Assembly: GCA_945876745.1 (NCBI GenBank)
Contig: CAMCPL010000001.1
Span: 372,001 to 436,000 of the forward strand
Direction of reading: 5' to 3'
DNA length: 64,000 bases
From: an uncultured Clostridia bacterium
Lineage (GTDB): Bacteria; Bacillota; Clostridia; Oscillospirales; Acutalibacteraceae
The notes under the pieces are model-generated. The model saw only the letters and a list, made by a program, of their open reading frames with translations. It ran no database searches and was not told the origin of the DNA. Both the position numbers and the translations under genes were made by a program. Position 1 is the stretch's first letter, and each line of letters opens with the position of its first letter. This document shows positions 19,674 through 25,847 of this stretch, in pieces.

Positions 19674-19742
19674 GAAATTAACATATCCGAGCAAAAAGAG
19701 GATATGACTATTATAAAATATATAAGAAACGGAGGAATTGCG

Positions 19743-20552
19743 ATGACATTGGCTCCGCTTACGGCAGGGATTAATCTTCAAGAGGAATTGCAGGAGCAGT
19801 TGAATATTGAAGAAATATTCGGCTTTGACATCGGCTCGGTTCATATAGGCTTTGACGAAAGCACGGTTGTATCGTGGATAATAATGCTTGTGCTGACGGT
19901 TTTGGCGGTTATGCTGACGAGAAATCTAAAGGTTGACGGCAATATCTCGAAGCGTCAAATGCTGCTTGAAATGGCTTACGAAAAGGGCACTGCTTTTTTC
20001 AAAACAATGCTCGGTCCAAAGGTTGAAAAGTATACCGAGTGGCTTATGAGCCTTGCAATATTTATCGGCGTGTCGAATATGATAGGTCTTTTCGGAATGA
20101 AACCGCCTACAAAGAGTATGCAGGTTACGGCCGCAATGGCGCTGACGTCGATAGTTTTGGTTGAATATGTTGCGTTCAAGAACTACGGTGTGAAGAAGCG
20201 ACTGAAAAAATTCACAAAGCCGGTTGCCATAGTTACGCCGATTAACGTGCTTGAAGTGTTCACAAAGCCGCTTTCGCTTTGTATGCGACTGTTCGGCAAC
20301 ATCATAGCGGCGTTTACGATTATGGAGCTTGTAAAGGCTGTTCCGTTTTTGAAAATCGGCGTGCCGGCAGTTTTAAGCCTGTATTTCGACTTGTTTGACG
20401 GATTGCTTCAGGCGTATATTTTCTGCTTCTTAACGGCAATTTATCTTGAGGAATCGGTTGAAGAATTTGACGATAAGCCGAAAAAGAAGAAGCGCAAATC
20501 GAAAAAGAATAAAGAAATTGAGCAGACGCAGGCACCTGCCGAGGCTGCTTAA
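19743..20552 (+). CDS. atpB: ATP synthase F0 subunit a
   Basis: 269 residues from the ATG after GGAGGA at 19731-19736; an in-frame ATG 39 bases upstream has no ribosome site. Five or six membrane helices are visible. The proton-channel arginine lies in LCMRLFGNIIAAFTI, the most conserved part of the family. The C-terminal tail is unusually long and basic (KPKKKKRKSKKNKE). The subunit forms the ion half-channels beside the c-ring. It is first in the operon; no atpI or atpZ precedes it. Confidence 0.96.
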   Translation: MTLAPLTAGINLQEELQEQLNIEEIFGFDIGSVHIGFDESTVVSWIIMLVLTVLAVMLTRNLKVDGNISKRQMLLEMAYEKGTAFFKTMLGPKVEKYTEWLMSLAIFIGVSNMIGLFGMKPPTKSMQVTAAMALTSIVLVEYVAFKNYGVKKRLKKFTKPVAIVTPINVLEVFTKPLSLCMRLFGNIIAAFTIMELVKAVPFLKIGVPAVLSLYFDLFDGLLQAYIFCFLTAIYLEESVEEFDDKPKKKKRKSKKNKEIEQTQAPAEAA

Positions 20553-20587
20553 AAATATTAAGTATTGAATGGTAAGGAGATAAAATT

Positions 20588-20815
20588 ATGACAGGTTCAA
20601 TTATTGCAATAGGCGCAGGTATAGCATTGCTTTGCGGCTTCGGCGCAGGTATCGGTATCGGAATTGCAACAGGTAAGGCAGTAGAGGCACAGGCTCGTCA
20701 GCCTGAAATCGCAGGTAAAATCCAGACTACTCTTATTTTAGGCGCGGCACTTTCGGAGGCAACTGCTATTTACGGACTTATCGGTGCGCTGTTTATAATT
20801 CTTATGCTGAAATAG
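20588..20815 (+). CDS. atpE: ATP synthase F0 subunit c
   Basis: 75 residues, two hydrophobic helices joined by the polar loop ARQPE. The ion-binding carboxylate is Glu57 in [10 protein letters not shown]. The first helix is glycine-rich ([13 protein letters not shown]). The positions that hold Pro and Gln in helix 1 and Ser after the Glu in well-studied sodium-type rings (Ilyobacter) are Ala, Ile and Ala here, which favours proton coupling. That is inference from alignment by eye. A good AAGGAGATAA site precedes it. Confidence 0.96.
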
Positions 20816-20863
20816 CCGAGATAAACCGACAATTTATCAAAGTTATCGAAAGGAAAATAGCAA

Positions 20864-21355
20864 ATGTTAAAATTTGACTTTAATTTGCTTTGGACAGTAA
20901 TTAATTTAGTTATATTCTTTCTTTTAATGCGACTGTTCCTGTTTAAGCCAATAAAGAAAACGCTTGCCGCACGTGAGGAAATGCTCAAGAATAAATTTCA
21001 GCAGGCTGACGATACGGTGAACGAGGCTAATCAAAAGCTCGCCGAGTATGAGGAGCATATTGCGAACGTCGACGAGGAAGCAAAGCAAATCGTTATTGAC
21101 GCAAAGAATAAGGCAAAGAGCGAATACGACAAGATTATTCAAAAAGCAAACGACGATGTTTCCAAGATGAAGGAAACGGCAAAGAAGCAAATTGCCGCCG
21201 AGAACGAGCACGCTTTGCATAATTCAAAGGAAGAGATTGCAAGGCTTGCAATGGAGGTTGCTCAAAAGGTAATCGAGGATAAGGCGGGCGAGGAGCTTGA
21301 CAGCGAAATCTATAACAAATTTTTGAACGAAAGCAGTGAAAGCGATGATAAATAA
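20864..21355 (+). CDS. atpF: ATP synthase F0 subunit b
   Basis: 163 residues: one N-terminal membrane helix (LLWTVINLVIFFLLMRLFLF), then FKPIKKTLAAREEM and a long charged coiled coil, the standard b subunit of the peripheral stalk. Length is normal, so b is not fused to delta as in mycobacteria. Its 3' end overlaps the next gene, which carries the delta C-terminal domain on alpha. Confidence 0.95.
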   Translation: MLKFDFNLLWTVINLVIFFLLMRLFLFKPIKKTLAAREEMLKNKFQQADDTVNEANQKLAEYEEHIANVDEEAKQIVIDAKNKAKSEYDKIIQKANDDVSKMKETAKKQIAAENEHALHNSKEEIARLAMEVAQKVIEDKAGEELDSEIYNKFLNESSESDDK

Positions 21356-23138
21356 GGATGATTGCATTGAAGAGCTGCTTGAACCGCTCAACGACGATAC
21401 AGTAAGAGCAGTTGTTCATTGTACAACTCCGCCCAATGAGCGTCAGCTTGAGGGCATAAAGGATTTTGTGTGCGTTCAAACAGGCGCAAAAAATGCACAG
21501 GTAATTATAGTAGAGGACAAATCTCTTGTCGGCGGCTTTGTTATTCATACCGACGGCAAGGAATATGATTTCAGTCTGAAAAAGAAGCTTGACTCCATTG
21601 AGGAGCAGGTTTTGAAAACTGTGCGCGAAAGCCTCGGAAATCAAGAGCAGGTTTTGACCGCACTTCATAAAAATGTTGAAGAGTTTAAGCTCATTACCCA
21701 TGTCGAAGAGGTCGGCAGAGTAATAAGAGTCGGCGACAGTATTGCAACAGTTGTCGGAATAAACAACGCAATGTACGGCGAAATCGTTGTGTTTGAGGAC
21801 GGCACAAAGGGTATGGTGCAAAATATCAACCGTGATTCAATCGGCTGTATTTTGTTCGGTGACGACGACGATATTCAACAGGGCTCAAAGGTAAAAAGAA
21901 CAAAGAAAAAAGCAGGCGTTCCCGTTGGTGAGGACTTTATCGGCAGAGTTGTAAACGCTTTAGGCGAGCCTATTGACGGTTTGGGAGAAATCAAGGCGAG
22001 TGATTACCGCCTTTTGGAGCAACCGGCACCGTCGATTGTTGACAGAAAATCCGTAAAGGAGCCGATGGAAACGGGCATTTTGGCAATAGACAGTATGTTC
22101 CCGATAGGCAGGGGACAGCGTGAGCTTATTATCGGCGACCGTCAAACGGGTAAAACCGCTATTGCCGTTGATACGATTATTAACCAAAAGGGTAAGGATT
22201 GTATCTGTATATATAACGCAATCGGTCAAAAGGCTTCGACCGTTGCAAAGCTCGTAAATACATTAAAAAAGCACGGCGCAATGGAATATACGATAGTAGT
22301 TTTTGCAAGCTCGTCCGACAGCGCCTCGCTTCAATATATTTCGCCTTATTCGGCGACCGCAATTGCGGAATACTTTATGTATCAGGGCAAGGACTGCCTT
22401 ATCGTATATGACGATTTGAGCAAGCACGCCGTTGCATACAGAGAAATTTCACTCTTGCTTGAAAGACCGCCCGGACGAGAAGCATATCCCGGTGATGTTT
22501 TCTATCTCCATTCGAGACTTTTGGAGCGTTCAAGCAGATTGAGTGATGAACTCGGCGGCGGCTCGATTACCGCTTTGCCGATTATCGAAACTCAGGCAGG
22601 TGACGTTTCGGCATACATCCCGACAAATGTTATCTCGATTACCGACGGACAGATTTATCTTGAAAGTGATTTGTTCTTCAGCGGTCAGCGTCCTGCGGTA
22701 AATGTCGGACTTTCCGTATCCCGTGTCGGCGGTGCGGCGCAGACAAAGGCAATGAAAAAGGCGGCAGGCTCGCTTCGTGTTGACCTTGCACAGTTTAGAG
22801 AAATGGAAGTGTTTACGCAGTTTTCGTCCGATTTGGATGAGGAAACGAAGCGTGAGCTTCGCTACGGAAGCGGTCTTATGGAGCTTCTCAAGCAACCTAT
22901 GACAAAACCTCTTTCGATGCCGGAGCAGGTTATAACGCTTGTCGGCGCAATAGGTAAGAAATTTGTCGACGTGCCAAAGGAAAAAATCAAGAGCTATCAA
23001 ACTTCTGTGCTTGAATATTTCCATACTCATCATAATAATATCGTCGACCTTATCGCAACTCAAAAGGAGCTTGACGACGAGCTGAGATATGCAATTTTAG
23101 AGGTCTTCGACGAGTTTGAGGGTGTGAATAATGGCTAA
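21345..23138 (+). CDS. atpA: Fused ATP synthase F1 delta (C-terminal domain)-alpha subunit
   Basis: 597 residues from ATG 21345 (a GTG at 21336 is also possible), about 95 more than a normal alpha. Residues about 20-90 match the C-terminal domain of delta/OSCP: VRAVVHCTTPPNERQLEGIK, VIIVEDKSLVGGFVIHTDGK and the final SLKKKLDSIEEQ helix. The N-terminal six-helix domain of delta is missing. From about residue 118 the protein is ordinary alpha: EVGRVIRVGDSIATVVGI beta-barrel, Walker A GDRQTGKT (264-271), and DDLSKHAVAYREISLLLERP. No separate atpH exists in the operon, which is otherwise complete. The usual alpha N-terminal helix that binds delta is replaced by the fusion. The gene overlaps atpF by 11 bases and atpG by 8. 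Confidence 0.93.
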   Translation: MINKDDCIEELLEPLNDDTVRAVVHCTTPPNERQLEGIKDFVCVQTGAKNAQVIIVEDKSLVGGFVIHTDGKEYDFSLKKKLDSIEEQVLKTVRESLGNQEQVLTALHKNVEEFKLITHVEEVGRVIRVGDSIATVVGINNAMYGEIVVFEDGTKGMVQNINRDSIGCILFGDDDDIQQGSKVKRTKKKAGVPVGEDFIGRVVNALGEPIDGLGEIKASDYRLLEQPAPSIVDRKSVKEPMETGILAIDSMFPIGRGQRELIIGDRQTGKTAIAVDTIINQKGKDCICIYNAIGQKASTVAKLVNTLKKHGAMEYTIVVFASSSDSASLQYISPYSATAIAEYFMYQGKDCLIVYDDLSKHAVAYREISLLLERPPGREAYPGDVFYLHSRLLERSSRLSDELGGGSITALPIIETQAGDVSAYIPTNVISITDGQIYLESDLFFSGQRPAVNVGLSVSRVGGAAQTKAMKKAAGSLRVDLAQFREMEVFTQFSSDLDEETKRELRYGSGLMELLKQPMTKPLSMPEQVITLVGAIGKKFVDVPKEKIKSYQTSVLEYFHTHHNNIVDLIATQKELDDELRYAILEVFDEFEGVNNG

Positions 23139-24018
23139 TGCAAGAGAACTGCAAAGCCGTATGAAGTCGATTAAGGACACTATGAAAATCACAAATGCGA
23201 TGTATATGGTGTCCTCCTCGAAGCTTCAAAGGGCACGCAGAGAGCTGAAAAACACAGAGCCGTTTTTCTATATGATTCAGGACAGCCTTGCAAAGATTAA
23301 AGCGGCTGTTCCCGACGCAGGCTCGGCATATTTCGACAAACGCCCGAAAAAGCAGGGCGACGACAGAATTATCGGCTATCTCGTTGTTACTGCCGATAAG
23401 GGACTTGCCGGCGCATATAACCATAATATTATTAAACTTGCCGAAAAGAATGTAATTACCGACGGTGCGAATAATATGCTTTTTGTTATCGGTCAGCTCG
23501 GTCGTCATTATTTTGAAAAAAGGTCGATACCTATTGATATAAACTTCAATTATACCGCGCAGAATCCGACTGTAAACCGTGCAAGACATATAAGCGAAAA
23601 GCTCATTGAAATGTTCCTTGAGCGCAAGATTGACGAAGTGCGTGTAATCTACACAAGAGTTGTCAATTCAATGACTGTTGAAGCGGTGTGCAACAAGGTT
23701 TTGCCGCTTGCCGAGGACGATATTCAAATTCAGGATAACGAGCTTGTTGACGAGTATGACGACGCAGTATTTATGCCGGATGCCAAAACCGCGTTTGATA
23801 CGATAGTACCGAGCTATGTTGCCGGCTTTGTTTACGGAGCCTTGGTAGAAAGCTATTGCAGTGAGCATAATTCGAGAATGATTGCAATGCAACAGGCGAG
23901 CGAAAGCGCAAGCGATATGATTAAGGAGCTTTCCGTTCAGTATAACCGAGCAAGACAGGCGGCAATTACGCAGGAAATCAGCGAGGTTTGCGGAAGCGCA
24001 AAGCATTTGAATAAATAA
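23131..24018 (+). CDS. atpG: ATP synthase F1 subunit gamma
   Basis: 295 residues, normal length. N-terminal coiled-coil helix (ELQSRMKSIKDTMKITNAMY) and C-terminal helix (SESASDMIKELSVQYNRARQ followed by AAITQEISEV) are the conserved rotor-shaft segments, with a Rossmann-like middle (YLVVTADKGLAGAYN). It is the central stalk that couples c-ring rotation to catalysis. The ATG overlaps the alpha gene by 8 bases. Confidence 0.96.
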   Translation: MANARELQSRMKSIKDTMKITNAMYMVSSSKLQRARRELKNTEPFFYMIQDSLAKIKAAVPDAGSAYFDKRPKKQGDDRIIGYLVVTADKGLAGAYNHNIIKLAEKNVITDGANNMLFVIGQLGRHYFEKRSIPIDINFNYTAQNPTVNRARHISEKLIEMFLERKIDEVRVIYTRVVNSMTVEAVCNKVLPLAEDDIQIQDNELVDEYDDAVFMPDAKTAFDTIVPSYVAGFVYGALVESYCSEHNSRMIAMQQASESASDMIKELSVQYNRARQAAITQEISEVCGSAKHLNK

Positions 24019-24027
24019 AAAAGGTAG

Positions 24028-25422
<1,395 letters not shown>

Positions 25423-25433
25423 GTGGGGAAAGT

Positions 25434-25847
25434 ATGGGTACTTTTTATCTGAAAATCGCCGCTTCAAACAAAATATTTTTTGAGGGCGAATGTAAAAGTC
25501 TTACCGTTCCCGTTGCAAACGACGGACTTTGCGGATTTTTGGCAAACCACGAAAATACGGTTGCGCCGATTGATTTCGGCGAAATGAAAATAATCGACGA
25601 AAACGATAATGTTATCGAAGCGTTCGTAAGCTCCGGATTTTTGGAGTTCTTCGATAATACGGCAAACCTCGTTTGTATTTCGGCAGAGCTGCCGGAGGAA
25701 ATTGATAAACGCAGAGCCGAGGAGGCAAAGCTTCGTGCCGAGGAAGAATTGCGACAGGAGCGCTCCATTCGCGAATATTATCAGTCAAAGGCAAACCTCT
25801 CAAGAGCAATGGAACGAATCAAGATTAAAAACAGACACGAAATATAG
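25434..25847 (+). CDS. atpC: ATP synthase F1 subunit epsilon
   Basis: 137 residues. N-terminal beta-sandwich (FYLKIAASNKIFFEGECKSL, GLCGFLANHE) followed by two C-terminal helices rich in Glu and Arg (EEIDKRRAEEAKLRAEEELR), the regulatory hairpin that can inhibit ATP hydrolysis. Last gene of the operon, closed by a terminator immediately after the stop. Confidence 0.95.
   Translation: MGTFYLKIAASNKIFFEGECKSLTVPVANDGLCGFLANHENTVAPIDFGEMKIIDENDNVIEAFVSSGFLEFFDNTANLVCISAELPEEIDKRRAEEAKLRAEEELRQERSIREYYQSKANLSRAMERIKIKNRHEI

Follow-up and report, generated by a model that had tools for sequence, protein, structure and literature searches.

The coupling ratio of an F-type ATP synthase is usually taken to be the size of its c ring divided by three, because there is one a subunit on one stalk. 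Ueno et al. (2025) engineered a delta-deltaN-alpha fusion in the enzyme of Bacillus PS3 (PMC12229609; PDB 9JC1), on the rationale that the delta N-terminal domain (NTD), by its position on the three-fold axis, restricts the enzyme to one stalk. The engineered enzyme bore as many as three stalks and three a subunits and reached an H+/ATP of 5.8, with a mean of about two stalks by SDS-PAGE and fewer on cryo-EM grids (PMC12229609). The same paper also states that every ATP synthase so far has a single a subunit, names natural NTD-less fusions (Acidaminococcus fermentans, UniProt G4Q3K6 and A0A1I2C5T3), and, in the Discussion, calls a multi-stalk structure of the natural fusions "highly likely". 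Two other departures from a free delta subunit are relevant, namely the b-delta fusion of mycobacteria and Gordonia (PMC5709465) and the N-ATPases, which have no separate delta (PMC5706428) and an operon in the order beta-epsilon-...-a-c-b-alpha-gamma (PMC5709465).

Apart from the sentences on natural fusions in PMC12229609, a search of the PMC literature turned up no publication that deals with delta-alpha fusions in clostridia, the Lachnospiraceae included. No description of stand-alone delta C-terminal domains (CTDs) or of b'-delta-alpha triple fusions was met in PMC literature on related subjects. The locus analysed here was originally put forward as a delta-alpha fusion of which no described example was known, a statement superseded by Ueno et al., who both built such a fusion and named natural ones (PMC12229609).

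The F-type operon and its fused alpha gene

The window, by which is meant the whole stretch of 64,000 nucleotides that was analysed, contains an F-type operon at positions 19704-25847, in which open reading frames and Pfam profile matches give the gene order a-c-b-alpha-gamma-beta-epsilon (Table 1). Rfam and tRNA scans of the window returned no matches. The C-terminal tail of the b subunit (...DSEIYNKFLNESSESDDK) resembles the b tail of a sister lineage, and the start of atpA, whether GTG 21336 or ATG 21345, overlaps the end of atpF in another frame. Sodium-type c rings have a glutamine in the ion-binding region; that region of the window c subunit (...LSEATAIYG) is without it, which suggests a proton-type ring. 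The alpha gene lies within the operon and scores 761 bits against the TIGR00962 cut-off of 484, as expected of a true AtpA.

Ahead of the alpha core, residues 21-91 of the GTG form match positions 101-171 of the 172 positions of the OSCP profile PF00213, with E 8.6e-9 when the whole protein is searched and E 8.6e-10 with the first 120 residues. No delta NTD is present in the window alpha, the PF00213 match beginning only at position 101. As alignment of the full-length model was confined mostly to the core of alpha, the delta domain was folded separately, and its predicted fold matches those of delta CTDs, with 7jg8 chain d, of the mycobacterial/Gordonia b-delta type, among the rows. The original prediction of a delta CTD fused to alpha, with the NTD lost, is borne out by the profile and fold matches and by a gap relative to NTD-bearing relatives. 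The helix motif of the alpha N-terminus is retained in CTD-only fusions; in PS3 the delta CTD is touched by one alpha N-terminus (PMC12229609), a contact that may be the reason for this retention. In both architecture and history, the window alpha gene is almost certainly a natural delta-deltaN-alpha fusion.

Profile searches of the draft genome to which the window belongs (1.93 Mb, 18 contigs, 98.6% complete) gave a single match each for OSCP, for atpA (over cut-off) and for the a subunit. No plain alpha was found beside the fused atpA in this draft, and neither a separate atpH, originally noted as missing from the operon, nor a second delta was found in it; the fused gene accounts for all the alpha and delta sequence that was detected there. 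Rnf C is present, and nothing over cut-off was seen for the V-type A subunit.

Chain I of PDB 9JC1, a delta plus alpha chain of 580 aa, is collinear with residues 20-584 of the window alpha (E 8.1e-185); the alignment is broken by a gap of a single residue at the linker and by minor gaps close to the C-terminus. Like the window enzyme, the engineered PS3 FoF1 has the delta NTD removed, the CTD joined to the alpha N-terminus and no separate delta, but the PS3 construct is artificial, its linker short and its epsilon truncated, whereas the window has a natural junction and an epsilon that keeps its C-terminal helix domain (PF00401). Furthermore, stalk number was measured for the PS3 construct, whereas for the window enzyme it is predicted from the genes. 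Acidaminococcus fermentans is a negativicute, in contrast to the clostridial lineage of the window, which has its own history of fusion and later NTD loss. The likeness of the A. fermentans protein, G4Q3K6 and A0A1I2C5T3 to the window, as natural delta-alpha fusions without the NTD, is one of description only (PMC12229609), and since Ueno et al. named them, the window can be assigned to a kind already proposed in nature.

Other known types fit the locus less well. N-ATPase identity was rejected, with the window alpha at 612 bits against the TIGR03324 cut-off of 750.5, and is also contradicted by the operon order and by a b subunit of only 163 aa, that of N-ATPases being longer; the C-terminal part of the N-ATPase b model TIGR03321 gives a weak match to the window delta CTD (E 0.048). 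The b-delta fusion of mycobacteria and Gordonia, present once per enzyme, resembles the window in that delta is covalently joined to another stator subunit, but that subunit is b, whereas in the window the delta CTD is joined to alpha; this type was rejected for the window because b ends at 21355 in another frame and the delta CTD is encoded in that of alpha. V-type ATPases with three E/G stalks have other subunits and another membrane sector, and serve as a working analogy only.

Table 1. Features of the window operon and locations of triple-fusion genes in relatives
Feature	Location	Strand	Remarks
atpB, a subunit	19704..20552	+	PF00119 E 2.3e-40; alternative start ATG 19740 possible
atpE, c subunit, 75 aa	20588..20815	+	PF00137 E 3.4e-17
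atpF, b subunit, 163 aa	20864..21355	+	PF00430 E 2.6e-23
atpA, delta-CTD-alpha fusion	21345..23138	+	597 aa from ATG 21345; 600 aa from GTG 21336
N-terminal stretch of atpA, remnant of the deleted delta NTD (start and part of last NTD helix)	21345..21395	+	alignment with NTD-bearing relatives
Delta/OSCP CTD in atpA, residues 18-88 of the ATG form, core LVGGFVI	21396..21608	+	PF00213 positions 101-171; fold match
Possible internal start: GAGGAG, then in-frame TTG 21612 (Leu93 of the GTG form)	21600..21614	+	dG -7.8, rank 1/31
Linker and the N-terminal helix that alpha retains (H100-113 of the full model)	21609..21704	+	
Ordinary alpha core: beta-barrel, nucleotide-binding and C-terminal domains	21705..23138	+	TIGR00962 761 bits
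atpG, gamma	23131..24018	+	PF00231 E 6.8e-89
atpD, beta	24031..25422	+	PF00006 E 3e-76
atpC, epsilon	25434..25847	+	PF02823 and PF00401
Own-family triple fusions	L037:1905-4112, L038:901-3111, L040:1081-3294		
Order triple-fusion loci	L192-L201		fusions overall 735-759 aa, with separate short b gene

Distribution of delta-alpha fusions

The class was surveyed by TIGR00962 search in 196 genomes requested at >=90% completeness, with frame lengths counted by hand. An alpha was found in 120 genomes, and in 29 of these (the window's own included; 12 families) the alpha frame measures >=584 aa; the other 91 of the 120 are without a long frame, making the fusion a minority form at class rank. At each of the 28 other long-frame loci, a second HMM built partly from fused proteins matches a delta domain preceding alpha (23 CTD-only, 5 full), the weakest match having E 3e-4 (L167). 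Six control loci with shorter frames (539-560 aa) all proved unfused. The delta-alpha fusion is present in 12 families of the class, a distribution reported here as new; together with many records titled Lachnospiraceae, it leaves no place for the lineage-specific enzyme that had been considered possible. Nine of the 29 genomes with a fused alpha (G355, G222, G388, G372, G275, G320, G241, G208 and G249) also hold an alpha of standard length, so that in some genomes the fused enzyme is an additional ATP synthase, perhaps a specialised one; in the window genome only one was found.

Within the window's own family, 17 of 200 genomes carry a fusion (5 full, 10 CTD-only and 3 triple, one genome having two kinds), with L046 and L048 giving no match to the first HMM (Pfam OSCP 27.1 bits for L046 and 18.7, below the cut-off, for L048) and the weak OSCP matches of L049-L051 turning out to have no alpha operon. 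Nine own-family genomes have a separate CTD-only delta of 72-102 aa. Stand-alone deltas of this kind (72-108 aa), in which the NTD was lost without fusion, lie between b and alpha at L052-L060, L176 and L177, and one of them, L054, is the sister row of the fused L041 in a tree. Full-delta fusions are found in the named strains Pseudobutyrivibrio ruminis DSM 9787 (L116), Agathobacter ruminis JK623 and Parablautia sp. Marseille-Q6255.

Several loci are unusual in other ways. L035:1936-4284 encodes two copies of the delta NTD, then one CTD and alpha (782 aa), in an operon with two c genes. L181:1766-5301 is a second F-type operon in G066, besides a standard one, in which b ends early and alpha follows directly after b; no delta was found in this locus. 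L071 (JAMPEQ010000001.1), titled Bacteroides sp., carries a clostridial fused operon and is probably a misnamed MAG.

Some relatives carry a fusion of three subunits, with a single frame predicted to encode a membrane helix and a b-like coiled region, then the delta CTD, then alpha. This triple fusion of b', delta CTD and alpha, new here, was found in 3 own-family genomes and in 10 of 295 genomes of the order, from three other families, one of the ten being cut by a contig end. Pfam OSCP and alpha domains occur together in all three own-family proteins, with ATP-synt_B over cut-off in one and below it in two. In ten triple loci (nine of the ten order loci and G175) the genes run a, c, short b (138-141 aa), fusion (736-759 aa), gamma, beta, N-terminal hydropathy is 2.2-2.7, and a start codon at the junction to alpha is absent in four. 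Three such alphas would provide three membrane b' anchors per F1, with the stalk anchors hard-wired.

Fusion first, loss of the NTD later

Among the best 80 of at least 591 confirmed matches, which as the most similar loci are biased toward the kin of the window, HMM matches and extension length assign 45 as full-delta fusions, 17 as CTD-only, 17 as having a separate delta and 1 as cut off, with 9 of the 17 CTD-only loci (L108, L110, L113, L117, L118, L120, L129, L141 and L144) lacking a delta match to the first HMM and assigned by alignment with the window N-terminus. A careful tree was built from 63 alpha cores out of 109, the 46 omitted being near copies, long branches and other clades, and in it the window pairs with a full-delta fusion, L068, with support of 100/99. 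The two share the b/alpha overlap and the start, and the 101 residues ahead of the alpha core in the window compare with 179 in L068, the difference being the NTD, which has been lost in frame. An alignment of ten genus genomes shows the same gap in G709 (98% identity) and G673 (87%); G690 has an NTD gap too, but placed differently.

Sixty genomes of the genus, most of them typed by frame length alone, ten aligned and all counted by hand, gave 55 with a match and 5 without, comprising 44 frames of 659-684 aa, 7 of 584-613 aa and 4 fragments. No alpha of plain length occurs among the 51 non-fragment frames. The delta-alpha fusion is the norm in the window's genus, which is a new observation here. 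The history read from these alignments is one in which a whole delta was first fused to alpha and the NTD was then deleted in frame within the window's species group.

The distinction between CTD-only and other loci requires 15 changes on the 63-row tree, at least 9 of them forced by well-supported branches. Because regaining a domain once lost is difficult, this pattern, also new here, points to many independent deletions of the NTD after fusion, a number that gene transfer could lower. The ratio of NTD to CTD identity is 0.61-0.76 in fused against 0.73-0.96 in separate deltas over four bins of alpha identity from 0.60 to 0.85, and is not lower in fused deltas (0.90 against 0.87) in the bin 0.90-0.97; with pairs that are not independent, one separate pair making up the lowest bin and a difference that comes mostly from a more conserved CTD, these values hint weakly at relaxation of the NTD in fused deltas.

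Stalk number of the fused enzyme

In the proposed mechanism, each of the three alphas would carry a stalk-docking domain, to which a b2 dimer would bind in the way usual for the delta CTD, and the covalent link to alpha would replace the grip of the delta NTD on the alpha N-termini. With the NTD absent from the three-fold axis, the restriction to one stalk would be lifted, and the window enzyme, like engineered PS3, could bind as many as three b2 stalks and one a subunit per stalk. The raised H+/ATP would allow an anaerobe such as this one, whose genome has Rnf C, to synthesize ATP at low proton-motive force, or to pump more protons per ATP. Three CTDs per F1 and a stalk attached without the NTD were expected in the original prediction, and the CTD fusion, the NTD loss and the failure to find atpH support that expectation.

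By analogy with the PS3 construct, we consider a multi-stalk function of the window enzyme probable. The near end-to-end alignment with the engineered chain argues for it, as do the triple fusions of relatives, which encode a membrane-anchored b' on each alpha, and repeated NTD loss after fusion is to be expected if a covalent tether makes the NTD dispensable. However, the NTD is kept in the fusion by 45 of the best 80 of at least 591 loci and, by frame length, in 44 of 60 genus genomes; as three NTDs could hardly share one axis, the fused alpha is evidently compatible with another arrangement as well. The loss of the NTD without fusion in nine own-family genomes likewise means that the tether alone does not explain NTD loss.

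These observations bear on an alternative that is less likely, though still a serious contender, in which all three alphas bear a CTD but each enzyme holds one b2/a stalk, either because a and b are limiting or because the membrane sector admits only one; two CTDs would then be idle, and the fusion would be only a sturdier hold on one stalk. The excess of full-delta over CTD-only fusions in close relatives (45 against 17 in the best 80 of at least 591, and 44 against 7 of 60 by length) favors such an enzyme, as do the single a subunit of all ATP synthases so far, according to PMC12229609, the one a and one b gene of the operon and the one a match in the genome. With one a gene found, three a subunits per enzyme would need a higher output of it, and the predicted ribosome site for a is stronger in fused (B -9.66, C -9.33) than in separate operons (A -7.68), with p 0.01 for A against C, uncorrected over ten tests; the b site is weaker in fused operons, and the two taken together give no consistent sign of extra a and b synthesis. 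Against a single stalk, the PS3 enzyme bearing this type of fusion acquired additional stalks (PMC12229609), and the triple-fusion relatives would bear three b' anchors per F1.

A second alternative, which we regard as improbable, is that ordinary alpha is produced as well, by an internal start or by proteolysis at the linker, and that a one-delta enzyme is restored by combining a fused alpha with two plain ones. TTG 21612 has the best Shine-Dalgarno sequence among the 31 in-frame NTG codons of the window gene, but its counterpart in the sister lineage is weak (dG -2.7). In L036, a full-delta fusion, the original ATG of alpha persists and has a ribosome site of fair strength (dG -5.9, rank 4/27), and in 8 of 108 fused genes, among which some genomes appear twice (e.g. 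L032/L071 and L033/L072), the 27-codon zone of the ordinary alpha start has a site of dG -6 or better. In contrast, 52 of the 108 have no in-frame ATG, GTG or TTG in this zone, start codons are rarer there than elsewhere in the fused genes (0.033 against 0.052 per codon), and ribosome sites at dG <= -6 are no more frequent than background (11.3% against 14.1%). The fused genes show no sign of a conserved internal start, a further new observation, and internal translation is not supported as a general source of plain alpha, given the 52 genes without a start codon, the lack of enrichment and sites that are no stronger. Moreover, one CTD lacking the NTD would not re-establish the contact that a classical delta makes with three alphas.

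An assembly or frameshift error that joined atpH to atpA or removed the NTD has a negligible probability and was rejected, since the same form occurs in the independent genomes G709 and G673 and 62 of the best 80 of at least 591 loci are fused.

Implications

That the delta NTD sets stalk number was shown by Ueno et al. in an engineered enzyme (PMC12229609). The window and its relatives look like a natural experiment along the same lines, in which fusion was followed by repeated loss of exactly the domain that limits stalk number. The question of natural multi-stalk enzymes, which bears on the energetics of fermenting anaerobes, is directly testable because some of the fusion-bearing relatives are named strains. 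Reasoning from the PS3 enzyme, it is nearly as likely as not that natural F-type ATP synthases with several stalks are at work in many anaerobic clostridia, with an H+/ATP two to three times the c-ring value and operation at low proton-motive force; the triple fusions of related families would then hard-wire three stalks in a V-ATPase-like manner. If so, nearly every alpha seen in the genus would be a stalk carrier, and the window's species group would have shed the part that enforces a single stalk.
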